This document shows positions 1,949 through 24,781 of a stretch of 64,000 bases of DNA, piece by piece; positions within the stretch are counted from its first letter, which is position 1, and every line of letters begins with the position of its first letter. Origin of the DNA: Kofleriaceae bacterium (GTDB lineage: Bacteria > Myxococcota_A > Polyangia > Haliangiales > Haliangiaceae). The stretch is taken from contig JAGPCY010000014.1 of the NCBI GenBank assembly GCA_018057825.1, positions 1-64,000 on the forward strand. The letters run 5' to 3'. A program made the position numbers and the translations under genes. Under the pieces are notes generated by a model, which saw only the letters and a list, made by a program, of their open reading frames with translations, was not told the DNA's origin and ran no database searches.

Positions 1949-3150
1949 GGCACCGTCCCGTAGAAGAAGGCGTCGGTCTCGTCGAACGCGGGCGGCACGA
2001 CCGGAGCGCCGGTCTCCGGGATGTGATTGTAGATCAGCGGCGCCCTGGTTGGAGCCACCGTCCCGCGGGGGCCCGGGTTCGCGATCGGGATGAGCAACTG
2101 GTACTCGAAGCGTCCGCCGATGCACAGGACCTTCGGTTGGGTGGCCGCGGCGTCGACGACGAACGACCACTTGAGGCCGTCGATCATGTCGGTCAGGGTC
2201 GGGTAGCCGTGCCGGCGGAACACTGGGTACGGGTGTGTGTCCTCGAATTCACTCGCACGAGAGAGCCACGTCGGCAGCCGCGCCAGGCGTTCGGCGTCGG
2301 TCTCCGGGATCTCCGACAGGGTGGGGAAGGTGATTTCATGGGTGACGACCGAATTTCTCGGCGTGCGGCAGTAGAAGGCCACTAGCCCCCGTGCGAACCT
2401 GTGCCCCCCGATGTTGCGACCCAACGGCAAGCGAACGCGCTTGCGCTCGGTGGTCGTGGTCTGATCTAGCCTGCCCACTCCCAGGAGCCTCAGCCAAGCG
2501 AGGAAGTCCGCGCGCGGGATCGGTGTCCCGTCCGGGCGGGTGAAGCCTTTGGCGTGGAACGCAGCCGCCAGCGCATTCCGGTTCGCAAACGGCGTCTTTT
2601 GGAACACGACGAACTCGTAGGCCATCCATTCGAGGATCTCGATCGCGGTGACGCCCTCGGTGCCGTTGGTCGAGACACCGTGGTAGTGCTTCGGGGCCGA
2701 TACGCGCACATGGCCGCCGAGCGCCTCCCGGAGCTTGATGAGCCACGGCGTCGCCTGTCCCAGGTTGCAGCCCTTGACGTGAAAGGCGCGCGCCGTCGGG
2801 GCGGGTGCGGCGGCCGAGAATCCGACGAGTTCATCGGGGATCGCGATGGTGTTGTTCGGGCTACGCAGGGAACTCACGAGCGCCTCGAAGTCGGTCCATG
2901 GTCCGATCGGGGAGAACGGAAACGGATCGACCATCCAGTCGCCGCGACGGTTGGCGTGGCCACCGACGACGAGCTCGTCGTCGATCGGAGGGGGCGGAGC
3001 GGCGCGCGCGGTCGCTTCTTCGAGGAAGCTCTGGAGCGTGTTGACGATCTCGATCATCTCCATGTTCGGTCGTCGGGACACCAGCAGCGCGAGGCGATTG
3101 AGATAGTCGTCAGCATCGTCGATGCGCGGTACCCAGCCGTAGTTGCTCAT
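1945..3150 (-). CDS. Conserved hypothetical protein (fragments recur in spacers downstream)
   Basis: This encodes 401 residues. An upstream in-frame start exists at 3363, but the ATG at 3150 is preceded by a strong Shine-Dalgarno (GAGGAGG) and is preferred; it also avoids overlap with the divergent lipoprotein at 3186. I do not recognise a named domain. Residues about 40-55 are Pro-rich and lead into IDDELVVGGHA. A segment around residue 130 (VKGCNLGQ, then WLIKLREALGG and VRVSAPKHYHG) looks like a conserved alpha/beta motif. There is no signal peptide or membrane span. The stop overlaps the DUF6603 start, so the two probably work together. Degenerate pieces of this gene lie between the lipoprotein copies at 4459-4601 and 5768-5857. 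Confidence 0.7.
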   Translation of the reverse strand: MSNYGWVPRIDDADDYLNRLALLVSRRPNMEMIEIVNTLQSFLEEATARAAPPPPIDDELVVGGHANRRGDWMVDPFPFSPIGPWTDFEALVSSLRSPNNTIAIPDELVGFSAAAPAPTARAFHVKGCNLGQATPWLIKLREALGGHVRVSAPKHYHGVSTNGTEGVTAIEILEWMAYEFVVFQKTPFANRNALAAAFHAKGFTRPDGTPIPRADFLAWLRLLGVGRLDQTTTTERKRVRLPLGRNIGGHRFARGLVAFYCRTPRNSVVTHEITFPTLSEIPETDAERLARLPTWLSRASEFEDTHPYPVFRRHGYPTLTDMIDGLKWSFVVDAAATQPKVLCIGGRFEYQLLIPIANPGPRGTVAPTRAPLIYNHIPETGAPVVPPAFDETDAFFYGTVP

Positions 3151-3185
3151 GCGCTCCTCCTCGCGTGTGTGGTAGTGTGGTGTCC

Positions 3186-4052
3186 ATGGTCCAGCGGTTC
3201 GCGTGGTCTGTTGCAGTCGCGATGAGTTGCGGGCGCAGCGCTGAGCCTGCGGGGCCGGTTCCTGGGCCAACGCCGACTCCCGCACTGGCGCCTGTGGACG
3301 CCGGACCAGCGCCGGGGACCGTCGGGCCGCGCTACCTGGTTGGGGAGACCTGTAGGTCGCCACAGCTCGGTAGGTCGCATCTGTACCCGCTGTTCGCGGG
3401 TGGCGACCTCGCCTGGACAGCAGAGGCGTCTGCGGCGCGCGCTCCCCTGGCCGAAGGGCCGCAACGCTTCCAGGTGCTCGGATCGCGCGGCGTGCGGCAC
3501 GGCGAGTTCGTCACCGACGCGCATAGCGTCCCACCTGACCCGCGCGGGTTCGTCGGGGAGTCCTACTACTACGACGGCGGCGCCGGACCGTGTGCGTACC
3601 GCCTGCCCGAGAAGGTCTATGTCATCGATGCCGGCTGTGGCGATGCGGGGAACTGCGGGATCTCGGTCGCGGTCCGCGGGGACCTCGCGCATCCGAAGAC
3701 GCGACCGGACATCGCGGTCGGCCAGGTCTGCGTCGTCGACGCCAACTTGATCGGCGACCTCGATGGCGACGGCGCCGCGGAGTCGTTTCCGCTGGAGGGC
3801 TTCCGTGGACCGGGCGACGTCGAAGGCGTCGTTCACCGTGGCGCCCCATGTCCACATCCGCGCTTCTCGTGGTACCGGATGCGCCTCGGCGCCGACGTGC
3901 TGGACGTGCTGGGCGCGGCCGATCTGGATCGCGACGGTCACCTCGAGCTCTTGGTCGCGTTTACGGCCGCGGGCGGGCCGCGCACGGTGGCGATCTACAC
4001 GCCGGCCTCCGGGCCCATCCGCCTCGAGCGACGGGCAGCGGTCGTCCGCTGA
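3186..4052 (+). CDS. Tandem-repeat family lipoprotein, copy 1
   Basis: This encodes 288 residues. The start is set by alignment with copies 2 and 3 (M-[VE]-[QR]-RFAWS); an upstream in-frame start at 3165 lacks support. A short signal sequence ends in AMSC, a lipobox-like site, followed by a Pro-rich linker (GPTPTPALAP). The mature domain holds several Cys residues, probably disulfides, and two calcium-loop-like segments, DLDGDGAAESF and AADLDRDGHLELLV, as in FG-GAP/VCBS repeats. The protein is probably an outer-membrane or periplasmic lipoprotein. It is divergent from the hypothetical gene at 3150, 35 bp away. Function is unknown. The three copies are nearly identical over the last 150 residues, so the duplication is recent or homogenised. 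Confidence 0.72.
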   Translation: MVQRFAWSVAVAMSCGRSAEPAGPVPGPTPTPALAPVDAGPAPGTVGPRYLVGETCRSPQLGRSHLYPLFAGGDLAWTAEASAARAPLAEGPQRFQVLGSRGVRHGEFVTDAHSVPPDPRGFVGESYYYDGGAGPCAYRLPEKVYVIDAGCGDAGNCGISVAVRGDLAHPKTRPDIAVGQVCVVDANLIGDLDGDGAAESFPLEGFRGPGDVEGVVHRGAPCPHPRFSWYRMRLGADVLDVLGAADLDRDGHLELLVAFTAAGGPRTVAIYTPASGPIRLERRAAVVR

Positions 4053-4308
4053 CGCCGACGCCCAGGTCGACACGGCGCGGCGCTCGGCGTTGACGCGCGC
4101 GATCGGCGCGGGCCCGGGGTCCACCGGCGCCGCGCGGCCGGCCGCGACACCGCGCGCGCAGGCTCCCAGCCACCATCCACTCATGACCTGACGATAACAG
4201 GGACTCCCCGCTGCGAGCAAGGGTGGCATGCTGTGTAACGTCCGGGGTCGGCAGCGGCGCCGGCGCCTCTGGTGCCTCCCGTGCCTGTGGAGTGCAGCCC
4301 GCGGCCCG
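4053..4308. repeat. Downstream spacer repeat A, unit 1
   Basis: The 256 bases after copy 1 recur after copy 2 (5513-5766) with few differences, for example the shared run GATAACAGGGACTCCCCGCT. No convincing gene is present. Short minus-strand reading frames exist but run antisense into the lipoprotein genes. The repeat shows that the duplicated unit extends past the coding region. Confidence 0.8.
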
Positions 4309-4458
4309 CCAGGCCGCACCGAGCAAGCGCGCCGACGACGCCAGGGACACGCCCTTCGACAACCGACCGAACATGCGACCTGTATCCGAACACCGGGGTC
4401 GGGTGATCGCAAGCCGCATCCACGCACGATCGATTCGATGCCAGGCGACGGCGGCGGG

Positions 4459-4601
4459 GCCATGCGCAGGCGCTGATACATGCACCTCCCACCGACCGAC
4501 TCCCGAAGCTTGGTGAGCCACAGTGGCGCTCTCCAGACAAGACGAACCGATCGCCCGCGACCGGGGGCGTGGCCACCGCCGATGAACTCGTCGTCGATCG
4601 C
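4459..4601 (-). pseudogene. Decayed fragment of the hypothetical gene at 1945-3150
   Basis: Read on the minus strand this spacer contains IDDEFIGGGHA (4568-4601), WLTKLRE (about 4496-4526) and, after a frame change, VHVSAPAHG (about 4459-4489). The intact gene has IDDELVVGGHA, WLIKLRE and VRVSAPKHYHG in the same order. About 200 bases between the first two segments and the N-terminal codons are missing. The fragment sits divergent to lipoprotein copy 2, just as the intact gene sits divergent to copy 1. The bases between 4309 and 4458 hold nothing I recognise. Confidence 0.75.
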
Positions 4602-4624
4602 GGGAGCGTGGTAGCTTCACGTCC

Positions 4625-5512
4625 ATGGAGCGGCGATTCGCGTGGTCTGTCGCGGTGGTGCTGAGTTGCGGGCGCAGCGCTGAGCCTGCGGGGCCGGTTC
4701 CGGCGTCCACGCCCACGCCCACGCCCGCGCCCGCGCCCGCGCCCGCGCCGGCCGCTGCGGACGCCGGGCCAGCGCCGGGGACCGTCGGGCCGCGTTACCT
4801 GGTTGGGGAGACCTGTAAGTCGCCACAGCTCGGCAGGCCGCATCTGTTCCCGCTGTTCGCGGGTGGCGACCTCGCCTGGACAGCAGAGGCGTCTGCGGCG
4901 CGCGCTCCCCTGGCCGAAGGGCCGCAACGCTTCCAGGTGCTCGGATCGCGCGGCGTGCGGCACGGCCACATCCTCACCGACGTGAACGGCGTCCCCGATG
5001 ACCCGCGCGGGTTCGTCGGAGAGTCCCACTACGAAGAGGGGAGCGGACCGTGTGCGTACCGCCTGCCCGAGCAGGTCTATATCATCGATGCCGGCTGTGG
5101 CGATGCGGGGAACTGCGGGATCTCGGTCGCGATCCGCGGGGACCTCGCGCATCCGAAGAAGCGACCGGACATCGCGGTCGGCCAGGTCTGCGTCGTCGAC
5201 GCCCACCTGATCGGCGACCTCGATGGCGACGGCGCCGCGGAGTCGTTTCCGCTGGAGGGCTTCCGCGGACCGGGCGACGTCGAAGGCGTCGCTCACCGTG
5301 GCGCCCCATGTCCACATCCCCGTTTCTCGTGGTACCGGATGCGCATCGGCGCCGACGTGCTGGACGTGCTGGGCGCGGCCGATCTGGATCGCGACGGTAA
5401 CCTCGAGCTCTTGGTCGCGTTCACGGCCGCGGGCGGGCCGCGCACGGTGGCGATCTACACGCCGGCCTCCGGGCCCATCCGCCTCGAGCGACGGGCCGCG
5501 GTCGTCCGCTGA
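4625..5512 (+). CDS. Tandem-repeat family lipoprotein, copy 2
   Basis: This encodes 295 residues and is paralogous to the genes at 3186 and 5881. The signal sequence ends with VLSC (lipobox). The linker is an expanded Pro/Ala/Thr tract (PTPTPAPAPAPAPAPA) made of CGCCCG/CACGCC DNA repeats, longer than in the other copies. Copy-specific changes cluster between about residues 115 and 145 (HGHILTDVNGVPDDP, SHYEEGSG), while the C-terminal half with the calcium-loop-like DLDGDGAAESF is nearly invariant. This pattern fits a surface lipoprotein with one variable loop. No partner or enzyme motif is visible. Confidence 0.72.
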   Translation: MERRFAWSVAVVLSCGRSAEPAGPVPASTPTPTPAPAPAPAPAAADAGPAPGTVGPRYLVGETCKSPQLGRPHLFPLFAGGDLAWTAEASAARAPLAEGPQRFQVLGSRGVRHGHILTDVNGVPDDPRGFVGESHYEEGSGPCAYRLPEQVYIIDAGCGDAGNCGISVAIRGDLAHPKKRPDIAVGQVCVVDAHLIGDLDGDGAAESFPLEGFRGPGDVEGVAHRGAPCPHPRFSWYRMRIGADVLDVLGAADLDRDGNLELLVAFTAAGGPRTVAIYTPASGPIRLERRAAVVR

Positions 5513-5766
5513 CCCCGACGCACAGGTCGACACGGCGCGGCACGCGGCGTTGACGTGCGCGATCGGCGCGGGCCCGGGGTCCACCGGCGCCGCGCGGCCG
5601 GCCGCGACACCGCGCGCACTGGCTCCCAGCCACCATCCACTCATGAACTGACGATAACAGGGACTCCCCGCTGCGAGCAAGGATGGCATGCTGTGTAACG
5701 TCCGGGGTGGGCAGCGGCGCCGGCGCCTCCGGTGCCTCCGGTGCCTTTGGAGTGCAGCCCGCGGCC
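5513..5766. repeat. Downstream spacer repeat A, unit 2
   Basis: This is the second copy of the 4053-4308 sequence, following lipoprotein copy 2. It joins directly to the truncated gene fragment at 5768 because about 200 bases present in the first spacer (about 4309-4511) are missing here. Confidence 0.8.
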
Positions 5767-5767
5767 A

Positions 5768-5857
5768 GGTGAGCCACAGTGGCGCTCTCCAGACAAGACG
5801 AACCGATCATCCGCGGCCGAGGGCGTGACCACCGCCGACGAACTCGTCGTCGATCGC
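5768..5857 (-). pseudogene. Second, shorter decayed fragment of the 1945-3150 gene
   Basis: The minus strand encodes IDDEFVGGGHA (5824-5857) followed by LWLT, then breaks off into repeat A. The same 113-base block (5768-5880) lies before copy 2 at 4512-4624. It is therefore a copy of an already decayed fragment, deleted further. Confidence 0.7.
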
Positions 5858-5880
5858 AGGAGCGTGGTAGCTTCACGTCC

Positions 5881-6750
5881 ATGGAGCGGCGATTCGCGTG
5901 GTCTATCGCGGTGGTGCTGAGTTGCGGGCGCAGCGCTGAGCCTGCGGGGCCGGTTCCGGCGCCCACGCCCACGCCCGCGCCCACGCCGGCCGCTGCGGAC
6001 GCCGGGCCAGCGCCGGGGACCGTCGGGCCGCGTTACCTGGTTGGGGAGACCTGTAAGTCGCCACAGCTCGGCAGGCCGCATCTGTTCCCGCTGTTCGCGG
6101 GTGGCGACCTCGCCTGGACGGCCGAGGTGTCCGCGGCGCGCGCTCCGATGGCCGAAGGGCCGCAACGATTCCAGGTGCTCGGATCGCGCGGCGTCCGGCA
6201 CGGCGAGTTTGTCACCGAAGTGACTGGAGTGCCCGCTGACCCGCGCGGGTTCGTCGGGGAGTCCTACTACTACGACGGCGGCGGACCGTGTGCGTACCGC
6301 CTGCCCGAGAAGGTCTATGTCACCGATGTCAGCTGCGGCGATGCGGGGAACTGCGGGATCTCGGTCGCGATCCGCGGGGACCTCGCGCATCCGAAGACGC
6401 GACCGGACATCGCGGTCGGCCAGGTCTGCGTCGTCGACGCCCACCTGATCGGCGACCTCGATGGCGACGGCGCCGCGGAGTCGTTTCCGCTGGAGAGCTT
6501 CCGCGGACCGGGCGACGTCGAAGGCGTCGTTCACCGTGGCGCCCCATGTCCACATCCCCGCTTCTCGTGGTACCGGATGCGCCTCGGCGCCGACGTGCTG
6601 GACGTGCTGGGCGCGGCCGATCTGGATCGCGACGGTCACCTCGAGCTCTTGGTCGCGTTCACGGCCGCGGGCGGGCCGCGCACGGTGGCGATCTACACGC
6701 CGGCCTCCGGGCCCATCCGCCTCGAGCGACGGGCCGCGGTCGTCCGCTGA
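5881..6750 (+). CDS. Tandem-repeat family lipoprotein, copy 3
   Basis: This encodes 289 residues. The ATG at 5881 matches the start of copy 2 (MERRFAWS); a longer in-frame start at 5779 falls in the decayed spacer and is rejected. The lipobox is VLSC. It differs from copies 1 and 2 mainly near residues 110-140 (EVTGVPADP, VTDVSCGD). Downstream the repeat stops: 73 bases later the unrelated sigma54 activator begins, so copy 3 marks the right end of the array. Confidence 0.72.
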   Translation: MERRFAWSIAVVLSCGRSAEPAGPVPAPTPTPAPTPAAADAGPAPGTVGPRYLVGETCKSPQLGRPHLFPLFAGGDLAWTAEVSAARAPMAEGPQRFQVLGSRGVRHGEFVTEVTGVPADPRGFVGESYYYDGGGPCAYRLPEKVYVTDVSCGDAGNCGISVAIRGDLAHPKTRPDIAVGQVCVVDAHLIGDLDGDGAAESFPLESFRGPGDVEGVVHRGAPCPHPRFSWYRMRLGADVLDVLGAADLDRDGHLELLVAFTAAGGPRTVAIYTPASGPIRLERRAAVVR

Positions 6751-8355: not shown

Positions 8356-8853
8356 CTACGGCCGGGCGCAGTCGGTGCAACGGCCGCGGAGCTGGACCTC
8401 GGCGACCTGGTTGCGCGAGGCCTCGCCGCGCAACGACACCGAGCTGGCCGGGAGGCAGGCGACGGTGCCGCAGTCGTTGCACACGAAGTGCGGGTGCTCG
8501 CCGTGGGTGGCGGCGGCGGTGCGCGGGAGCTCGAAGCGCCAGACGTTGTCGCCGAGCTGGGTCTTGATCAGGAGCCCGGCCTCGGTCAGGGACAAGAGGT
8601 TGCGATAGATCGTGACGCGATCCATGCCGTCGCCGGCCAGCCGCTCGGTCAGCTCGGAGTGGCTCGTCGGGATGCGCAGCTTGGCCAGCTCGCGCAACAC
8701 GGTCATCCGCTGCTCCGTGACGCGCAGCCCGCGCGCCACCAGGAGCTGGCGCAGGTCGTCGTCGCGTAGCAGACGGGTCTTGCCGGACATGTCCCGGTAC
8801 TGTCGCGCGTTCGCGTCGACCGGGCAAGGCGGCTCGGACCCCGCCGCGGTCAT
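8356..8853 (-). CDS. zur: Fur-family repressor, probably Zur
   Basis: This encodes 165 residues from an ATG at 8853 that overlaps the GTPase stop (ATGA). A second ATG at 8790 would give 144 residues and is possible. The N-terminal winged helix includes [14 protein letters not shown] and the recognition helix region [13 protein letters not shown]. The C-terminal half has [10 protein letters not shown] and a final CTDC, the two CxxC pairs that hold structural zinc in Fur proteins. Co-transcription with a COG0523 GTPase, and Zur-box-like palindromes upstream of that GTPase and three nearby units, argue for zinc as the co-repressor rather than iron. Autoregulation through the site at 10121 is likely. 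The choice of Zur rests on context. Confidence 0.82.
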
Positions 8854-10109
8854 GCCGCGCCGCCGGTGGCTGGCCGGTCGTCGTCGTCGTCGTTGTCGTC
8901 GTCCTCGCTGGCCTCGGTCCAGGCCGGGAAGGGATCGTCGAAGTCGGCCCAGGCCGCGGGCCCGGCCGCCAGCTCGGTCGGGGTCAGGAGCGCGGCGTCG
9001 AGGCCGGCCCGCAGCTCGGCCTCCTCGAGGTCGACGCCGATGAAGACCAGCTCCTGGCGGCGGTCGCCCCAGCGCGGATCCCAGGTCACGCCGGGCTCGG
9101 CGGCGGTCTGGACGCGGACCTCGGGCGGCAGCGCCGCCCGCCACCACCCGGCGGTGCTGGCGCTGGCCGACAGGCCGGCCTGGGACCACAGCCCGCGCAG
9201 GTCCATGCGGGTGGCCAGCCAGAAGAACCCCTTGGAGCGCAGGACGCCGTCCCAGGCGTCGGGGTCCTGGAGCACCGCCCACAGCCGGGCGGGGTGGAAC
9301 GGTACGCGCGCGCGGTAGACGAAGCTGCCGATGCCATAGGCCTCGGTCTCGGGGACGTGCTCGCCGCGGGCCTCCTTGAGCCAGCCCGGGGCGCGGGCGG
9401 CGCGATCGAGATCGAAGCGGCCGGTGGCCAGCACCTCGGTCAACGGCACGCGACCGTGGTCGGCCCGGACCTGCACCGCGTCGGGGTTCAAGTGGCGCAA
9501 GATGCCCTCGACCCGATCGAGGTCGTCGCTCGACACCAGATCGACCTTGCTGATCACCAGCACGTCGGCGAACTCGATCTGCTCGACCAGCAGGTCGACC
9601 ACGGTCCGGCGGTCGTCGTCGCCGAGCGCGGCCTGGCGGACCTGGAGATCGTCTTCGCTCAGCCAGTCGGCCAGGAAGTTGTGGGCGTCGACCACCGTGA
9701 CCATGGTGTCGAGCTTGGCCAGGTCGGCCAGCCGGCGCCCGGCCTCGTCCTCGAAGGTGAAGGTCTCGGCCACCGGCAGCGGCTCGGAGATCCCGGTCGA
9801 CTCGACTAGCAGGTAGTCGAAGCGCCCGGCCTCGGCCAGGCGGGCGACCTCGCGCAGCAGATCTTCGCGCAGCGTGCAGCAGATGCAGCCGTTCTGCATC
9901 TCGACGAGCTGCTCATCGACCCGGGCGACGGCCGCGTCGCCGGCACTGACCAGGCGGGCGTCGATGTTGACCTCGCTCATGTCGTTGACGATGACCGCGA
10001 CCCGGCGGCCCTCGCGGTTGGCCAGGATGTGGTTGAGCAGCGTGGTCTTGCCGGCGCCGAGGAAGCCAGATAGGACGGTGACGGGGAGCCGAGCCGGATG
10101 GGGATCCAT
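8850..10109 (-). CDS. zigA: COG0523 (CobW/ZigA-type) GTPase, zinc metallochaperone
   Basis: This encodes 419 residues. G1 is GFLGAGKTT (15-23), the metal-binding CxCC is GCICC (Cys75, 77, 78), G3-like ESTG follows, and G4 is SKVD. The tail is acidic ([13 protein letters not shown]), a possible weak metal ligand. ZigA/ZNG1 proteins use GTP to deliver zinc to client enzymes during zinc shortage and are typical Zur targets. It is the first gene of an operon with the Fur-family gene, overlapping by 4 bases. A perfect palindrome 12 bases before the start codon is probably the Zur operator. The ATG at 10109 is chosen because the frame upstream lacks GTPase homology. Confidence 0.88.
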
Positions 10110-10120
10110 GGGTCGCAAGA

Positions 10121-10135
10121 TGCAACAGTGTTGCA
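10121..10135. promoter_or_regulatory. Putative Zur box A, perfect 7-1-7 palindrome
   Basis: TGCAACAGTGTTGCA is a perfect inverted repeat with one central base, the geometry of Fur-family operators. It lies 12 bases before the zigA start codon on the minus strand, and can also serve the divergent gene at 10221. Confidence 0.75.
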
Positions 10136-10173
10136 CATGGGTCAAGCCCCGATCCGGTCCCTTCGTCGATGTA

Positions 10174-10188
10174 CGCAACATGATTGCA
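10174..10188. promoter_or_regulatory. Putative Zur box B
   Basis: CGCAACATGATTGCA keeps the GCAA/TTGC core of box A with the same spacing. It sits 33 bases before the ATG of the MerC-like gene, in the zigA/merC-like divergent region. Confidence 0.65.
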
Positions 10189-10220
10189 TGACCAGGCGGC
10201 CCCAGGGTAGCTTCTCGCCA

Positions 10221-10661
10221 ATGTCCGCGACCCCGCGCGCCGCCTGCCGTCAGACCTGCGACTGCACCGCCCACCGGGCTCGTCCGCCGGCCGGGGCCGG
10301 TTGGTGGTCCCTGCTGCTGCCGATCCTGGCTTGCGCGCTGTGTCCGGCGTGCGTGACCACCTACGCCAAGCTGTTCGCGGTCCTGGGGGTCGGCTTCGGT
10401 CTGTCGGAGACCCAGCACGTCGCGCTCCTGGTGGTGGCCCTGGCAGGGTCCCTCGGGGTGAGCGCGTGGCGGACCGTGCGGACCGGGCGCCGCTGGCCGC
10501 TGTCGGTCGCGGTGGTCGGCGCGACCGCGGTGGCGATCGGTCACGCGGTGCCGAGCGCCCACCTGCTCGAGTGGGTCGGCGTCGCGATCCTGCTGGCCGG
10601 AGGCCTGACCGAGCACTTCCGGTTGCGGCGCCAGGTCCGCCTGGCCGCCGTCGCGACCTGA
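10221..10661 (+). CDS. Small MerC-like membrane protein
   Basis: This encodes 146 residues. The ATG at 10221 is preferred over in-frame codons upstream because those cross the palindromes. The N-terminus is Cys/His-rich ([11 protein letters not shown]) and is followed by about four hydrophobic segments. The first contains CALCPAC, resembling the Cys pair in MerC-family inner-membrane metal transporters. The C-terminus is basic (FRLRRQVRL), as expected on the cytoplasmic side. With Zur-like sites on its 5' side it is likely a metal, probably zinc, importer or accessory. MerC is known for mercuric ion; substrate here is an inference from the neighbours. Confidence 0.6.
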
Positions 10662-10719
10662 TCGCGGTCGCCGCCGCGGCGCGGCCGGCGCGGGTAGTCC
10701 ACCGCCGGGTCGGATGTAT

Positions 10720-10734
10720 CGCAACAGAGTTGCA
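10720..10734. promoter_or_regulatory. Putative Zur box C
   Basis: CGCAACAGAGTTGCA differs from box A at two of 15 positions. It ends 32 bases before the ATG of the DUF1826 gene. Confidence 0.7.
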
Positions 10735-10766
10735 AAAGGAATCGGCCCGGCGTAAAACGTCCGGCG

Positions 10767-11462
10767 ATGTCCCTCGCCCAGCCGGCGTCCGCCGCCCCGT
10801 CTTGCCGTCCGCCCCCGAGCGTCGCCCCGACCCTCGACGACGGCTGGCGCGCCGCCGCCGACCCGGTGGTGCTGTCGGCCCTGACGACCTCGACGGTCGA
10901 CCTGGCGGTGTGGCGGCGGCCGGTGCCCGACCAGGTCACCCGGACCCTGGCGACCTGGGCCGAGACCAAGCCGGCCGGCTTCGAGCGGCTGATCGCGCCG
11001 ACCCGCGACGCGCTGGCGCCGGCGGTGGCTGGCCTGCCGGTCGCCGCGCGGGCCTGGGTCCACGACGACCTGGCCGACCTGATCGAGCGCCTGGGGTCGC
11101 TGGCGGCCGCGCCCCGCTTGCGGGTGTGGTTCGGTCCGGTGCGCGGTGACCAGTGCCGCAAGTTCCACGTCGACTACGTCCGCTACCGGCTGATCACCAC
11201 CTACGTCGGGCCGGGCACCGAGTGGGTCCCGCCGGGTGCGGTGGCGCGGGCCGCCCTCGAGCATCCCCCCGACTGTCCGTGCGACGCCAACCGCGCGATC
11301 GTCCCCGATGGCGCGGCCGTTCAGCACGCGGCGATCGGCGACGTGCTGGTCATGAAGGGCGCGCTGCACCCCGACGGGCGCGGGGTGGTCCACCGCTCGC
11401 CGCCGATCGCGGGCACCGGCGTGACCCGGGTCGTGCTGATCGCCAGCGCCGAGGCGCGGTGA
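10767..11462 (+). CDS. DUF1826 protein, probable zinc-starvation factor
   Basis: This encodes 231 residues. The diagnostic DUF1826 stretch [20 protein letters not shown] is present at about residues 130-150, followed by GTEWVPP and GDVLVMKG. Conserved Cys and His residues ([23 protein letters not shown]) could bind metal. DUF1826 genes occur in predicted Zur regulons of other bacteria beside COG0523 GTPases; the biochemical role is not established. Upstream is a Zur-box-like palindrome, and 19 bases downstream begins a NiCoT-like transporter, so they likely form one operon. Confidence 0.85.
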
Positions 11463-11481
11463 GCGGCGCCGCGGTGCCGGC

Positions 11482-12102
11482 ATGACCGGCTGGTCGATCC
11501 TGTGGTTTGGGATCGGACTGGGGGTTCGCCATGCGACCGACCCCGACCACGTCGTCGTGATCGCGGCGCTGGTCGATCGCGAGCGCAGCGCGCTTCGGGC
11601 CGCGCGGATCGCGGCGCTGTGGGGCCTCGGGCACACCGCGACCTTCCTCGGCCTCGGCCTGGCGATCGTCCTGGCTGGCGTCAAGCTGCCCGGGGCGCTG
11701 GAGGTCGCCGCCGAGGCCCTGGTCGGCGTGATGCTCGTGGCCCTCGGGGCTTGGCACCTGCTGCGGCTGCGCCGGGTCGAGCCGGCGGGGAGCCCACCGA
11801 CCGCTGGCACCCTGCGGCCGCTCGCGTTCGGGCTGGTGCACGGTCTCGCAGGTTCGGCCGGTGCCGCGCTCCTCGCGTCGACGACGGTTCCGTCCCCCGG
11901 CCTGGCAGCGACCTACTTGGCGCTGGTCGCCCTCGGCACGATGCTCGGCATGATCGGGCTGACCGTGGCCCTGGCCGGCGTCGGTCGGGCGCTGCAGCGC
12001 CGGCGCCGCGGTCGGCTGGTCGCGCTCGTCGGTGCGCTGCTCAGCCTGGCGCTGGGCACGTGGATGCTCGGTCAGCTCGGGGTCGATGCGCTGGTCGGGT
12101 GA
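11482..12102 (+). CDS. NiCoT/UreH-like transition-metal permease
   Basis: This is a 206-residue integral membrane protein with about six hydrophobic segments. Helix I contains RHATDPDHV, an exact HX4DH motif (His17, Asp22, His23), the signature of the nickel/cobalt transporter family. A second motif, GLGHTATF, follows, and the loop after it is basic. In a Zur-linked operon behind DUF1826 it may import zinc or cobalt instead of nickel; substrate cannot be told from sequence. Its end overlaps the convergent dmeF stop by 31 bases. Confidence 0.82.
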
Positions 12103-13112
12103 GCGGGGGCGGCGTCGGCCGCTGCATGGTGGCAGCGCTCGACCTCGATCGTCACGTGGTCCAGGCGGAACCGGCGCAGGGTGGCGCGGTAGGCCGCCGG
12201 CTCGCGCGGCACGGCCGAGACCAGGCTGACCACGCAGCAGCGCCGCCCACCGCCGATCGACCAGACGTGGAGATCGCGCACCCGAACATCATCGACGGCC
12301 TCGAGGGTTGCCCGCAGGTCTCGCGCGAGGGCGGTCGACGGCACGACGTCGAGGAGCTCGGCGCCTGCCGCGCGCGCCAGCGCCTGGCCCCAGACCAGGA
12401 TCAAGCACCCGCCGACCACCCCCGACACGGCGTCGGCCCACACCCAGCCGAGCTCGCGGCCGACCACCAGCGCCACGATCGCCAGCACGCTGGTGAAGGC
12501 GTCGGCGACCACGTGGGCGGCCGCCGCGCGGTGGTTGTGATCGTGACCGTGGTGATCGTGGTCGTGATCGTGATCGTGGTCGCGATCGTGATCGTGATCG
12601 TGATCGTCGTCGTGATCGTGGTCCTGACCATCGCGCTCATCGCGAGCGTGCTCGTCGTCGCCGTGGGCGTGCAGCAAGGCGACGCTCGCCAGGTTGACCA
12701 CCAGGCCGATCACCGCGACCGGCAGCGACCGGGCGTAGTCGATCGCGTGCGGCGCGGCCAGCCGGGCGATCGACTCGCCGACCGTCGCCACCGCCACCAG
12801 GGCGAGGGCGACCGCGCTGGCGAAGCCGGCCAGGGCCCGGACCTTGCCGGTGCCAAAGGCCAGGGCGTGGTGATCGGCGTAGCGGCGGGCGGCCGCGTAG
12901 GCGAGGGCGGCCAGGCCCAGGGCGGCGACGTGGGTCGCCATGTGCCAGCCGTCGGCGAGGAGCGCCATCGAGCCGGTCGCGTAGCCGACCACGATCTCGA
13001 TCACCATGGTCGCCGCGGTCAGCCCGACGACCAGGCGCAGGCCGCGCTCCTTGCGCTGGGCACCGACCGGCCGGCGGACCGTGCACGGGGCGGGGAGGGT
13101 CCGGGTGTGCAT
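12072..13112 (-). CDS. dmeF: CDF cation efflux protein, DmeF type
   Basis: This encodes 346 residues. It has six membrane segments of the cation diffusion facilitator fold and the DmeF-like LLADGWHMATH in helix II, with a matching HVVADAFTSV in helix V that supplies the second ligand pair. Between helices IV and V lies a long His/Asp loop (about residues 150-195, DHDHDH units). The loop is encoded by GTGATC hexamer DNA around 12541-12632, and on the opposite strand this reads as a hydrophobic repeat. DmeF proteins export Co2+ and Ni2+. The gene begins 5 bases after the RcnR/DmeR-type repressor, matching the known dmeRF arrangement. Confidence 0.9.
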   Translation of the reverse strand: MHTRTLPAPCTVRRPVGAQRKERGLRLVVGLTAATMVIEIVVGYATGSMALLADGWHMATHVAALGLAALAYAAARRYADHHALAFGTGKVRALAGFASAVALALVAVATVGESIARLAAPHAIDYARSLPVAVIGLVVNLASVALLHAHGDDEHARDERDGQDHDHDDDHDHDHDRDHDHDHDHDHHGHDHNHRAAAAHVVADAFTSVLAIVALVVGRELGWVWADAVSGVVGGCLILVWGQALARAAGAELLDVVPSTALARDLRATLEAVDDVRVRDLHVWSIGGGRRCCVVSLVSAVPREPAAYRATLRRFRLDHVTIEVERCHHAAADAAPAHPTSASTPS

Positions 13113-13117
13113 GGCGA

Positions 13118-13390
13118 TCACCCGACGAAGCGACGGAGGACCTGGGCCAGCTCGGCGGCGGCGGCGGCCCGGGCCGGGCGCGACAGCCCTGGGGCGGCCA
13201 CATGATCGAGGACGTGGTCGCACAGGACCTCGGCGGCCAGGGCGTCGATCGCGCCGCGGGCGGCGGCGATCGTCCGGATCACCTCCTCGCAGCCGCGCTC
13301 GGCGACCAGGGCGCGCTCGACCGCGTCGATCTGGCCGCGGACCCGGCGGACCCGGGCGACCAGCTTCTTCTTGTGGTGGACGGTGTGCAC
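13118..13390 (-). CDS. dmeR: RcnR/DmeR-type Ni/Co-responsive repressor
   Basis: This encodes 90 residues from a GTG at 13390, the usual length of CsoR/RcnR/FrmR proteins. The all-helical fold motif RVRRVRGQIDAVERAL is clear. Candidate metal ligands are His2, Cys34, His59 and His63, which match the His3-Cys35-His60-His64 set of RcnR with a one-residue offset, so nickel or cobalt is expected instead of copper. An 18-base G/C-tract palindrome 9 bases upstream of the start is a typical operator for the family. It forms an operon with dmeF and is divergent from a COG0523 GTPase. Confidence 0.9.
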   Translation of the reverse strand: MHTVHHKKKLVARVRRVRGQIDAVERALVAERGCEEVIRTIAAARGAIDALAAEVLCDHVLDHVAAPGLSRPARAAAAAELAQVLRRFVG

Positions 13391-13398
13391 GCCCCCAC

Positions 13399-13416
13399 GA
13401 TACCCCAGGGGGTATC
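13399..13416. promoter_or_regulatory. RcnR/CsoR-type operator for dmeRF
   Basis: GATACCCCAGGGGGTATC is a perfect inverted repeat with C4/G4 tracts, the form bound by CsoR/RcnR tetramers. It lies just before the dmeR start codon, so autorepression of dmeRF is expected. Confidence 0.85.
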
Positions 13417-13429
13417 GGCGGTCCACGCT

Positions 13430-13444
13430 TGCAATCAAGTTGCG
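13430..13444. promoter_or_regulatory. Putative Zur box D
   Basis: TGCAATCAAGTTGCG keeps the GCAA/TTGC half-sites and spacing of boxes A-C. It lies 16 bases before the start of the second COG0523 GTPase and 13 bases from the dmeR operator. Confidence 0.6.
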
Positions 13445-13460
13445 AATAGAGTAGCTCCGG

Positions 13461-14801
13461 ATGGAGCCCATGGACAAGATCCCCGTCACGATCCTGACTG
13501 GCTTCCTCGGGGCCGGCAAGACCACCCTCTTGAACCGCATCCTGACCGAACACCACGGCCAGCGGATCGCGGTCATCGAGAATGAGTTCGGCGAGATCGG
13601 CATCGACCAGGCCCTGGTGATCGAGGCCGATGAGGAGGTGTTCGAGATGAACAACGGTTGCATCTGCTGCACCGTTCGCGGCGATCTGATCCGCATTCTC
13701 GGCAACCTGGCCAAGCGGCGCGATCGCTTCGACCGGGTGCTGGTCGAGACCACCGGCCTGGCCGACCCGGGGCCGGTGGCTCAGACCTTCTTCGTCGATG
13801 ACGAGGTCCGGGCGCGCTACGCGCTTGACGGTATCGTCACGCTGGTCGACGCCAAGCACGTCCACCTCCACCTCGACGACTCGGCCGAGTGTCGCGAGCA
13901 GATCGCGTTCGCCGACGTCCTGGTCCTCAACAAGACCGACCTGGTCGGCGCTGACGAGCTGGCCGCCCTCGAGCGGCGGGTCACCGCGATGAACCGGCTG
14001 GCCAAGGTCGTGCGCGCGACCCAGGCCGACGTCCCGCTCACGACCGTGCTCGACGTCGGCGGCTTCGACCTCGATCGCGCGGTGGCCCAGAAGCCGACCT
14101 TCCTCGAGCCGGAGTACCCGTTCGAGTGGGCCGGGACCTACGAGCTGGCGGCCGGCGGCTACGAGCTGGTGCTCGGCCCCGGTCCCGACCCGACGATCGA
14201 CGTCCTGGCCCTGGCGCTGCCGGCCGGCGAGGTCGCCGAGGCCCGGGGGCCGGCCGACCGCGCGCTGGCGCGCTGGGTCGAGCCCGACCGCGCGACCGCC
14301 GGAGAGCTCCTGGTCGACGCGCCCCTGCCGACGACCATCGCGGTCGGCGCCGGTGATGCCCGTCGCCGCCTCGACCTAGCCGCGCCGACGCGGCTCGGTC
14401 TGTACAGCCAGCACGGCGCCGACGAGTTCGACCTGCGCCTCGAGCGCGCCGGCGCGCGGGTCGCGCCCGTGGCGGTCGGGGCGCTGGCCGCCGGCCACGT
14501 CCACGACGCCGAGGTCACGTCGGTCGGCATCCACCTCGACCGCCCGCTCGACGGCGATCGCCTGAACCAGTGGCTCGGGCAGCTCCTGCGCGAGCGCGGC
14601 ACCGACATCTTCCGGATGAAGGGGATCCTCGACATCGCCGGTCAGGATCGGCGCTACGTCTTCCAGGGCGTGCACATGCTGTTCGACGGTCGCCCCGATC
14701 TCCCGTGGGGCGACGCCGCTCGGGGCAGCGATCTGGTCTTCATCGGCCGCCGCCTCGATCGCGCGGCGCTCATCGCAGGAGTCGAGGCATGCCGCGCGTG
14801 A
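13461..14801 (+). CDS. COG0523 GTPase, second paralogue with long C-terminal domain
   Basis: This encodes 446 residues. G1 GFLGAGKTT (14-22), ENEFGE (40-45), the metal site GCICC (Cys67, 69, 70), ETTG and NKTD are all intact. The C-terminal domain is longer than in YjiA-sized members. It carries a central insert of about 100 residues and ends with the usual [12 protein letters not shown] block. His residues HVHLHLD (about 135) may add metal binding. It would act as a GTP-driven metal chaperone, presumably for zinc, under box D. The last codons overlap the WD40 gene start by 13 bases, so the two are probably coupled. An alternative ATG lies 9 bases inside. Confidence 0.88.
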
Positions 14802-15820
14802 GCCCCGCCGCCAAGCGCGTCGAGCTGATCGTCCGGACCCGGGGCGAGCTCGGCGAGTACGTCACCGCGCTCGCGGTCAGCGCGGACGGGTTGGTGGTCG
14901 TCGGCCTCGGCGACGGTCAGCTCGTCGGGATCGAGCTGCCCAAGGGCCGCGAGCGCTTCCGCGTCGCCGCGCATCCCGGCGGCGTCCTCGGGTTGGCGGT
15001 GTCGCCCGATGGCCAGCGCATCGCGACCTGCGGCGGCGAACCCACCGCCCGGCTGTGGAGCGCGACCGGCGCCGCGATCGCCGCGTTGCCGGCCGGCGGC
15101 CGGGCCTGGGTCGAGCACGTCGCGTGGTCGCCCGACGGGGCCCACGTCGCGATCGCGGCCGGGCGCGCGGTGCGGGTCTGGACTGCGACCGGCGCGCCGC
15201 GACTCGAGTCCGAGGCGCTGCCGAGCACGGTCGCGGGCCTGGCCTGGCGCGCCGATAGCGCCGGCCTGGCCGCGATCGCCTACGGCGGCGTACACCTGTT
15301 GCCGCTCCTCGAGGGCGGCGTCGCGCGTCACCTGGCGTGGAAGGGGTCGCTCATCTCGGTGGCGTGGAGCCCCGATGGCAAGATCCTCGCCTGCGGCAGC
15401 CAGGACGCGTCGGTGCACTTCTGGCGTCTGCCGGCCGGCAAGGACTCGGAGATGACCGGCTACCCGGCCAAGCCCAAGGCCCTGGCCTGGGATCGCGAGT
15501 CGAGCCTGCTCGCCACCGGCGGCGACGCCACCGTCACGGTGTGGGACTTCCGCGGCAAGGGCCCCGAGGGCAGTCGGCCGATCCAGCTCGCCGCGCACGA
15601 GGGGCTGTGCACCCAGCTCGCCTTCCATCCCAAGAAAGGGCAGCTCGCCAGCGCCAGCGCCGACAGCTCGGTCTTGCTGTGGGAGCCGAGGCGCGCCAAC
15701 CGGCCGCTGTGCTACGGCTTCCTCGACGGCGAGGCCACCGCCCTGGCCTGGCACCCCGAGCAGTCCACCCTGGTCGGCGCCGACGCCCGCGGCACCGTGT
15801 GCGCCTGGGCCACGCCGTAG
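14789..15820 (+). CDS. WD40-repeat protein coupled to COG0523 GTPase
   Basis: This encodes 343 residues, starting inside the end of the GTPase gene (ATG at 14789). It has about seven WD40-like units of the type [39 protein letters not shown] and [19 protein letters not shown], enough for one seven-bladed propeller. No signal peptide is visible, so it should be cytoplasmic. The first 20 residues are basic. WD40 propellers are protein-binding platforms. The overlap suggests a role with the GTPase, perhaps client recognition or a zinc-related scaffold; this is inferred only from position. Confidence 0.85.
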
Positions 15821-15883: not shown

Positions 15884-17224
15884 ATGTTACGTCATCTCGA
15901 GATCCGGGGCGTTGGCCCGGCGCGGGCGATGAAGGTCGATCTCGGTGAGCGAGTCAACTTGGTCACCGGGGACAACGGCGTCGGCAAGAGCTTCCTCCTG
16001 GACGTGATCTGGTGGTCGTTGACCCGGACCTGGGCCGCGGAGCCGGCTCGTCCGCGATCAGACGCGAATCCGGCTATCGAGTTTCGATTCGATACCCGAT
16101 CGAAGCCCGCCCATCCCGTGACGGCGTCGTTTGACGCCAAGCGGCAGGAGTGGTCGCGGAATCAGCGCGGGCGCCCCGCCGATCCGGGGCTCGTGCTCTA
16201 CGCGCAGGTCGACGGCGGCTTCTCGGTGTGGGACCCGGCGCGCAACTACTACAAGACGCGCGAAGGGGCGGACCCAGAGCGCCCACAGGCCTTCACGTTC
16301 ACGCGCGACGAGGTCTGGTACGGCAAGGGCGATCCGGCGCGGCCGGTCTGCAATGGCCTGGTCCGCGATTGGCTGACCTGGCAACTCGAGAAGGGTGAGG
16401 CACTCCGACTCACCGAGTCGGCCCTCGCACGTTTGGCTCCGCCCGACGAGCCGATCGTGCTGGGGAGCCCGGCCGTGGTCTCCGGCAGCACTCAGCGCGT
16501 CCCGACCCTACGCGCGCCGAACGGTCAGGAGGTGCCGATCACGCTCGCGTCGGCGGGGCTGCGGCGGATCTGCGCTTTGGCGTACCTCCTGGTGTGGACC
16601 TGGCTGGAGAACCGCGCCCAGAGTCAGCTCCAGAAGCTGCCTCCAGTCCGCGACATCACGTTTCTGATCGATGAGCTGGAGTCGCACCTCCACCCGCGCT
16701 GGCAGCGCACGATCTTGGGTGCCCTGCGTGGTCTGGTCGACCATCTACTCGGTGCGGGCGGCGCGCGCGTGCAGATCGTCGCCACCACGCATTCGCCGCT
16801 GGTCATGGTCGCGGCGGAGGACTGGTTCGGAAAGGACGACGCCTGGCTAGACCTCGACCTCGTCGATGGTGAGGTCGAGGTCGTTCCTCGAAAGTTCGAG
16901 CGTCGCGGGGTCGCAGCGGCTTGGTTGCGCAGTGAGGCCTTCAACCATGTGTCCGACCGTGCGCCCGAAGCGCAGCGGCTGCTCGACGAGGTCGCGCGGG
17001 CGTTGCAGTCCGGTCCGGTCCCTGGCGAGCAGCTCCGGACCCTCGAAAAGAGATTGGCTGCATCGCTCGGTCCTCACGATCCGTTCTGGCCGCGTTGGCG
17101 GCACCTCACCGCTCACCCGGCGCCTTCGCCACCCGCGCGGCCCGCGAGTGGTCTGCCGTCGACGGCGCGCGAACCCGCACCACAGTGGCCGTCGCCGCGA
17201 CGGCCGCGGGCCTCGAAGCGATGA
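15884..17224 (+). CDS. AAA/SMC-like ATPase of a two-gene candidate defence system
   Basis: This encodes 446 residues. The ATG at 15884 starts directly at the first strand of the ATPase fold (LRHLEIRGVGPARAMKVDL); earlier in-frame codons are not needed. Walker A is GDNGVGKS (29-36), Walker B LIDELESHLHP (about 260-270), and the H-loop ATTHSPLV (about 300). The region between carries a Tyr/Lys-rich insert (DPARNYYKTREG). This AAA_21/OLD-like layout is that of PtuA (Septu) and related anti-phage ATPases. The last 35 residues are Pro/Arg-rich, over the region before the nuclease start. The stop overlaps the HNH gene start (ATGA). It stands 63 bases after the WD40 gene and is not obviously related to it. 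Confidence 0.82.
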   Translation: MLRHLEIRGVGPARAMKVDLGERVNLVTGDNGVGKSFLLDVIWWSLTRTWAAEPARPRSDANPAIEFRFDTRSKPAHPVTASFDAKRQEWSRNQRGRPADPGLVLYAQVDGGFSVWDPARNYYKTREGADPERPQAFTFTRDEVWYGKGDPARPVCNGLVRDWLTWQLEKGEALRLTESALARLAPPDEPIVLGSPAVVSGSTQRVPTLRAPNGQEVPITLASAGLRRICALAYLLVWTWLENRAQSQLQKLPPVRDITFLIDELESHLHPRWQRTILGALRGLVDHLLGAGGARVQIVATTHSPLVMVAAEDWFGKDDAWLDLDLVDGEVEVVPRKFERRGVAAAWLRSEAFNHVSDRAPEAQRLLDEVARALQSGPVPGEQLRTLEKRLAASLGPHDPFWPRWRHLTAHPAPSPPARPASGLPSTAREPAPQWPSPRRPRASKR

Positions 17225-17883
17225 TCCCGGTCGTCCCCCAGGCGGCTCCCGACGATTTCGACCGCACGGTGCGCGATCCGGGCCGGGCCTGGCTGGCCCA
17301 GCGCCGAGGTGCAGCCGGTGGCCTCGCCGGTCCCTTGCCGAAGAAGGGGGAGCCCGACTATCGGAAGGACTTCTGGACGGGCGGTGAGAAGTGGCGCGTC
17401 GCCCTCGACGATCTCCGACGGCGGTACGGCGGGGTCTGTGCCTATTCGGCGTTGTGGGTCCCGCCCGGCACAGGCTTCGCCTCGGTCGATCACTTTGTGC
17501 CCAAGTCGGTGCGTCCGGATCTCGCGTACGAGTGGTCCAACTTCCGTTTCGCCAGCGGTCGAGCCAACGGGGCCAAAGGTGATCACCGCGACGTCCTCGA
17601 TCCGTTCACCGTCCACGCCGGGTGGTTCCATCTCGAGTTCGCGCTGCTGTCGATCTATCCGGACCCGGCGCAGCCAGACCTCCTCCGTTCGCAGATCCGC
17701 GCGACCATTGAGCGCTTGAAGCTCGACGGCCCCGATTGGCGTGCTGAGCGTCAGCACTACTGGGATCGGTACCTCGAGGATCTCTCCGCGGGCAAGGATC
17801 GCGCGGCCGCCGCCCAGGCCCTGGCGCGCGACGCTCCCCACGTCCACGCCGAGGCGCTTCGGCAGCAGCTCCTCGTGGGCTGA
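17221..17883 (+). CDS. HNH-like nuclease partner of the AAA ATPase
   Basis: This encodes 220 residues from the ATG at 17221 overlapping the ATPase stop. The beta-beta-alpha core can be traced: CAYSALWVPP (Cys73), SVDHFVPKS (Asp90-His91), YEWSNFRFA (Asn107) and RANGAKGD (Asn116, Lys119), followed by VLDPF and GWFHLEF. His91 and Asn107 fit the HNH catalytic His and Asn. The second Cys of the usual CAYC and the later zinc-binding Cys pair are absent, so structural zinc is probably lost. Pairing with an overlapping AAA ATPase is as in PtuA-PtuB. Activity and phage defence are inferences. Confidence 0.75.
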   Translation: MIPVVPQAAPDDFDRTVRDPGRAWLAQRRGAAGGLAGPLPKKGEPDYRKDFWTGGEKWRVALDDLRRRYGGVCAYSALWVPPGTGFASVDHFVPKSVRPDLAYEWSNFRFASGRANGAKGDHRDVLDPFTVHAGWFHLEFALLSIYPDPAQPDLLRSQIRATIERLKLDGPDWRAERQHYWDRYLEDLSAGKDRAAAAQALARDAPHVHAEALRQQLLVG

Positions 17884-23416: not shown

Positions 23417-24781
23417 TCAAGCGCCGGGGCGGGTGGTGCGGGCGGTGGCCCGCGGCGCCGCTGAGCGGGCAGTGCGCAGTCGATGGTCGAGGTCGGGCGC
23501 CGGGGTGAAGACGAACGCCCGTCCGTCCTGGTGCTTGAGCAGCCAGCCGCGCTCGGCGAGGGCGAGGAGGTCGGTGCGCGCGGTCTGGTAGGTCACGCCC
23601 TGGCTAGTGCGGTGCGCGTCGATCGTGAACTCAGCGTCGGCGCTGCGCACGGCCTTGGCCAGGAGCTGGCGTTGGCGGCGGTTGACCCCGCGCACGCCGC
23701 GAAGCAGTACGTCGATCGACCTGACCTCGTTGGCCTTGCGCCGCACGTAGGCGAACACGTCCTCGATCGCCCGGCGCACGATCTGGAGCTGGTACAAGAC
23801 GAAGTAGGTCGCGTCGTGCGTCGACTCGCTACGCACATAGGAGCGCGCGTACTGAGCGCGCGCTTTGTTGAGCAGGCGCGAGATCGAGATGAACTCGGTC
23901 AGCCAGTAGCCCTCGCGCAGCATCTGCCAGTAGAACACGGCCCGCGCCGTCCGGCCGTTGCCGTCGACGAACGGGTGATCGAAGCCGATCCAGAAGTGCA
24001 GGAGGATCGCGCGGACGACCGGGTGCAGGAAGCCCTCAGGGACCTCCCCGGCGGCGAAGCGCCCTAGCATCGCCAGGCGCTCCGGCAGCGAGTCGGCCGG
24101 TGGAGGCGTGTGGACGACCTCGCCGCTCGCGACGTCGATGACCCGAACATCCTCGTCCGCTCGGCGGAAGCGGCCCGCATCGTCAGCCGGGAGGGTGCCC
24201 GCGACCACGACGCGATGGAGCTCCTGCACCGCCTTCGGCGTGATGGGCTGGTGTTGATGCTCGCGCACCCACTCCATCGCGCGGTAGTTGCTGAGGATCA
24301 TGCGCTCGCTGTCATTGCGCGGCGGGCGGCCCTTCGCGAGCATCTCCTTGGCCGCTCGCCGGGTGGTCGACGCACCTTCGAGCTGACTCGAGGTGATGGC
24401 CTCCTCCATCAGGCCGGCGACGACGTAGCGATCCCGGGTCGCCGGGTTGGTGACCGGCTCCGGCAGCTCGATGCGCCCGCTCGCGTCGCGATCGATCGTG
24501 TGGACCAGGCGCCGGAGCGAGTCGGGGTTGGAGATGCCGAAGCTCGTGCCCCGGTCCTCTAGCGGGAGCGACACCGAGGTGGCGTGGCGGGCGCTCAAGA
24601 GCGAAAGCCACCACTCGTCCCGGGACAGCCCGGCCGGTGGCGTTCGGTAGGCCAGATCGTCCCAGTGGTAGTACTCCCCGTCGACCTCGGGCCGCCCTGT
24701 GAAGAGGCGCTGGGCTCGCTCGCTGGTGAGGTCCAACCCTCTGAGAAGACTCGGGAACGTGGGAGGGTTCGCCGCCTTCAT
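23417..24781 (-). CDS. Fic-domain protein, class II (probable AMP transferase)
   Basis: This encodes 454 residues. The Fic motif HPFVDGNGRTAR (about 266-277) is complete, with catalytic His. The N-terminal inhibitory helix has SSQLEGA (about 130-136), matching (S/T)xxxE(G/N), so the enzyme is self-inhibited until Glu is displaced. A C-terminal winged-helix-like region (TYQTARTDLLALAERGWL) is common in Fic regulators. Class II Fic proteins AMPylate or deAMPylate proteins. Host target is unknown. An AT-rich inverted repeat 44 bases upstream may be its operator or promoter. Confidence 0.9.
   Translation of the reverse strand: MKAANPPTFPSLLRGLDLTSERAQRLFTGRPEVDGEYYHWDDLAYRTPPAGLSRDEWWLSLLSARHATSVSLPLEDRGTSFGISNPDSLRRLVHTIDRDASGRIELPEPVTNPATRDRYVVAGLMEEAITSSQLEGASTTRRAAKEMLAKGRPPRNDSERMILSNYRAMEWVREHQHQPITPKAVQELHRVVVAGTLPADDAGRFRRADEDVRVIDVASGEVVHTPPPADSLPERLAMLGRFAAGEVPEGFLHPVVRAILLHFWIGFDHPFVDGNGRTARAVFYWQMLREGYWLTEFISISRLLNKARAQYARSYVRSESTHDATYFVLYQLQIVRRAIEDVFAYVRRKANEVRSIDVLLRGVRGVNRRQRQLLAKAVRSADAEFTIDAHRTSQGVTYQTARTDLLALAERGWLLKHQDGRAFVFTPAPDLDHRLRTARSAAPRATARTTRPGA

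Follow-up and report, generated by a model that had tools for sequence, protein, structure and literature searches.

A Septu type I gene pair in a GC-rich bacterium

Two overlapping genes from a GC-rich bacterium form a Septu type I pair, as is evident from homology, fold, conserved catalytic residues and gene coupling (Table 1). They lie in the window, by which we mean the whole 64,000-nucleotide stretch of Kofleriaceae DNA that was analyzed. Very probably they encode a presumed anti-phage system of the PDLC00307/PDLC00348 subgroup, in which the ATPase PtuA gates the HNH nuclease PtuB. The pair is thus a further case of Septu type I within a subgroup that PADLOC already models, and not a new system. 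Its role in defense is predicted from sequence, and the best matches of the pair are all to defense models.

Table 1. Coordinates of the ptuA-ptuB pair and of features within it
Feature	Position	Strand	Description and basis
PtuA	15884..17224	+	ABC/SMC-type AAA_21 ATPase, 446 aa; PADLOC, Pfam, alignment A2
PtuB	17221..17883	+	HNH nuclease, 220 aa; PADLOC, AF2 model, alignment A1
ATGA stop/start overlap of PtuA and PtuB	17221..17224	+	sequence
TGTGCCTATTCG	17437..17448	+	encodes Cys73-Ala-Tyr-Ser76, what remains of the CxYC motif at the canonical zinc site

The Septu type I models of PADLOC cover both proteins end to end and in the same gene order, with no difference from the window pair at the level of the models. 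PtuA matches PDLC00307 (E 6.5e-137, residues 1-409) and PtuB matches PDLC00348 (E 2.2e-55, residues 1-217). An earlier note on this DNA had likened the pair to Septu PtuA-PtuB and proposed a search against models of these proteins; the full-length PADLOC matches, together with the fold and the co-occurrence of the genes described below, make the likeness stronger than was claimed. Both proteins fall below the cut-offs of the NCBIfam PtuA and PtuB equivalog models, no Pfam model matches PtuB, and its score against NCBIfam TIGR02646 is 22.9 bits, compared to a curated cut-off of 52.15. A type of PtuB that Pfam does not see and that NCBIfam scores below its cut-off is now placed firmly in Septu. 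The proposal of a distinct subgroup therefore holds by sequence, given the score below the TIGR02646 cut-off and the lost zinc cysteines, but not as a departure from Septu, as which PADLOC already models it.

Motifs and fold of PtuA and PtuB

Pfam assigns PtuA to AAA_21 (E 2.6e-20). As the earlier note had read from the sequence, the ATPase carries a complete Walker A (GDNGVGKS, residues 29-36), Walker B (FLIDE, with the DE at 263-264) and H-loop (His303 within ATTHSP). The key residues G29, D30, N31, G34, K35, D263, E264 and H303 are invariant among 31 PtuA relatives (alignment A2). The HNH core of PtuB consists of VDH91 and WSN107, and both His91 and Asn107, singled out in that note, are invariant among 42 PtuB relatives (alignment A1), along with W58, C73, W105, R109, N116, K119, P128 and R177. 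The LDP..GWF segment that had been proposed as a signature is likewise real, with L126 in 39, D127 in 40, P128 in all, W135 in 38 and F136 in 41 of the 42 relatives.

Profiles built from both alignments match PtuA and PtuB chains, respectively, from Ec78, Ec83 and E. coli Septu in the PDB. An AF2 model of PtuB (mean pLDDT 92.7), whose structure comparison was also run with Foldseek, is closest to 8eea_G, the PtuB of E. coli Septu (Z 16.1, rmsd 3.4, 196 aligned residues). Among retron PtuB entries, those aligned over nearly their full length score Z 11.3-15.5 and a partial mutant entry, 9o4a, scores Z 8.6, whereas the next unrelated HNH fold, from Cas9, reaches only Z 4.4.

The window pair resembles E. 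coli Septu PtuAB (8ee4/8eea; EcB88) in gene order, ATPase motifs, PtuB fold and the 16-residue spacing between H91 and N107, which is the same as that between H75 and N91 of E. coli Septu. When their structures are aligned, however, the two PtuB proteins are only 14% identical, and the window subgroup differs in having lost the CxxC/CxxCN cysteines except C73 and in having the conserved LDP..GWF segment. Retrons of type I-A (Ec78, Ec83) also carry PtuA and PtuB homologues with an HNH core and a similar PtuB fold. In contrast to these, the window locus has no reverse transcriptase among its flanking genes: none of ten flanking proteins hits a reverse transcriptase family in Pfam, the upstream genes encode WD40 and CobW proteins, and the gap between the WD40 gene and ptuA is only 63 bp. 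Septu type II and retron I-A were ruled out because no reverse transcriptase was identified among these flanking genes.

Conserved pairing of ptuA and ptuB

A PtuA-type ATPase gene lies directly upstream of ptuB on the same strand in 48 of 49 PtuB loci, including one (L018) with a weak ATPase match; the single exception, L037, starts too close to a contig end. Because these relatives were collected by PtuB search, this test of ATPase pairing is not circular. When PtuA was searched for instead, 13 of the 95 related genomes were recovered, the very ones found by PtuB and in the same places, and three loci on viral contigs are paired in the same manner. The earlier note had considered that homologues of the nuclease might occur mostly without the ATPase, and the result is the contrary. 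Two of the loci, L015 and L048, are probably one, since their hits are identical and their contigs equally long. In two others the pair is apparently degraded, with a TAG inside PtuB in L010 (G072:C229:96982-97563) and PtuA split over two frames in L012 (G024:C749), although assembly errors are possible in both.

The ATGA overlap reported earlier is present, and the same 4-base overlap recurs in 32 of the 48 pairs that could be assessed, and hence is not due to chance. It probably couples the translation of ptuA and ptuB. A scan of neighboring ORFs in 31 loci revealed no third gene common to all; the most common extra neighbor is a methyltransferase, found in six.

Loss of zinc-site cysteines

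Of the four cysteines in the canonical CxxC...CxxCN arrangement, PtuB from the window keeps only C73, the first of CxxC, and so lacks the canonical four-Cys zinc site. The protein reads CAYS...FASGRANGAK, with the later CxxCN pair lost (ASGRAN). Among the 42 relatives, Cys occupies position 73 in all and position 112 in 14, whereas the residues listed for position 76, which is Ser in the window protein, include no Cys. For comparison, TIGR02646-type HNH proteins from the same and related genomes mostly have CxYC or CxFC/CxWC followed by FACxxCN. The earlier statement that the zinc-binding cysteines are missing is thus correct for three of the four, whereas Cys73 is retained and invariant.

The PtuB subgroup with lost zinc cysteines is widespread. 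Loss of these residues suggests that PtuB is zinc-free, and the degraded zinc site means that its catalysis and stability may differ from those of E. coli PtuB. A zinc-less PtuB appears in no title or abstract of the open-licence papers retrieved on Septu, HNH and zinc, and we found no experiments on this subgroup in the open-licence papers searched.

Proposed mechanism and target

We infer a PtuA-gated PtuB nuclease because the spacing of H91 and N107 equals that of H75 and N91, and mutation of the H75-N91 pair abolishes defense by E. coli Septu (PMC13096335). By analogy with E. coli Septu and retron-Ec78, from which complex formation, gating and an abortive outcome are carried over, PtuA, an ABC-type ATPase, would assemble with PtuB and keep the HNH nuclease inactive. 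Phage infection might then alter the nucleotide or ligand state of PtuA and release PtuB from inhibition, such that PtuB would cut nucleic acid through its H91/N107 site and infection would be stopped.

The same complex could act on tRNA, with PtuB as a tRNA nuclease, an alternative to which we assign distinctly less than an even chance. According to PMC13096335 and PMC11555353, E. coli Septu EcB88 and the PtuAB proteins of retron-Eco7 cleave or deplete tRNA-Tyr. However, PMC11555353 indicates that retron-Eco4 PtuAB likely spares tRNA and that the Septu system of E. coli ATCC 25922 is reported to cut DNA. Members of the present subgroup that are linked to methyltransferases also suggest a DNA target. 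We slightly favor DNA over tRNA as the target of PtuB, since the pair is accompanied by a type II DNA methyltransferase in six loci of this subgroup.

In these loci (L019, L031, L032, L033, L035 and L038), PtuA has an N-terminal extension of ∼215 aa, and the methyltransferase ORF overlaps or abuts the start of the extended ptuA, which is followed by ptuB (∼3000-6600 of each locus). Methyltransferases from two of the six loci were tested, and both match PADLOC MTase_II (E 1.1e-81 and 1.6e-77). The extension has no match in Pfam and an AF2 pLDDT of only 65.6, and the PADLOC PtuA model PDLC00270 (627 aa) already covers extended PtuA proteins. A long PtuA frame of 657 aa is also present in viral-contig locus L117. 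The combination of methyltransferase and extension favors a DNA target in this branch at least. The six loci fall in the same half of the PtuB tree as the window protein and require at least two changes there, so that gain, loss or exchange of the extension and the methyltransferase must have happened repeatedly.

Such loci raise the possibility of a restriction-like system, in which DNA that PtuA recognizes as unmodified or foreign is cut by PtuB. The type II methyltransferase and extended PtuA of related loci would tell self from non-self, and the window pair would be a shortened form that responds to another cue. The six loci and their place on the tree agree with this proposal, but the window pair and most loci of the subgroup have neither methyltransferase nor extension, and we regard it as doubtful. 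It is, like the tRNA alternative, a version of target or trigger, and neither excludes the gated Septu type I nuclease that we prefer. A broader proposal, also tentative and on the unlikely side, is that these proteins represent a zinc-free PtuB lineage that cuts DNA and relies on PtuA and other contacts, instead of zinc, to hold its HNH fold, with part of the lineage resembling restriction-modification systems composed of a type II methyltransferase, PtuA with its N-terminal domain and PtuB. If true, Septu would span both tRNA-cutting and methylation-guided DNA-cutting branches. Because some of its members carry a DNA methyltransferase, the subgroup could settle the disputed target of Septu, DNA or tRNA.

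Distribution and probable horizontal acquisition

PtuB and PtuA searches found the pair in none of six genomes of the same genus, and its distribution across the phylum is patchy (38 of 284). GC3 is 0.81 for both genes, compared to 0.89-0.97 for most neighbors; the exceptions are Fur2 (0.76) and a CobW1 stretch (0.46) whose boundaries and frame are provisional. The PtuB tree mixes phyla and departs from taxonomy, and places the window protein apart from a second copy in its own genome. Horizontal gain of the pair is likely, as judged from its absence in the six same-genus genomes and from its low GC3.

These data also bear on whether the genes are a host DNA-repair or housekeeping ATPase-nuclease pair with no part in defense. 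AAA_21/RecN/RecF-like ATPases do occur in repair, and the neighbors are metal-homeostasis and metabolic genes. Against this stand the absence from same-genus genomes and the patchy occurrence in the phylum, as well as the low GC3, the discordant tree and the matches to defense models. We consider a housekeeping role very improbable and have ruled out a repair pair on distribution.

The idea that the pair is an inserted unit is likely correct. In two same-genus genomes (G005 and G006) CobW2-WD40 is kept and a NicO-type transporter gene follows WD40, which indicates that the region is rearranged and not simply empty; no clean empty site was obtained in the same-genus genomes. Searches for flanking direct repeats gave only low-identity or internal GC-rich matches, none of them convincing, and no mobility gene was found near the pair.

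The window also contains a metal-homeostasis cluster (8356-15820) that comprises a Fur family protein, two CobW GTPases, a NicO-like transporter, a cation efflux protein and a WD40 protein, and whose CobW2-WD40 order is the one shared with two genomes of the genus. A gene for a Fic/DOC family protein (23417-24781) lies on the minus strand, about 5.5 kb beyond the downstream end of the pair. The genome from which the window comes (G000) carries a second pair of the same subgroup (C48:40658-42474) and three genes for TIGR02646-type HNH proteins, each adjoining an ATPase gene (C47:84223-84663, C38:21392-21565 and C39:168918-169118), for a total of about five Septu-like pairs.
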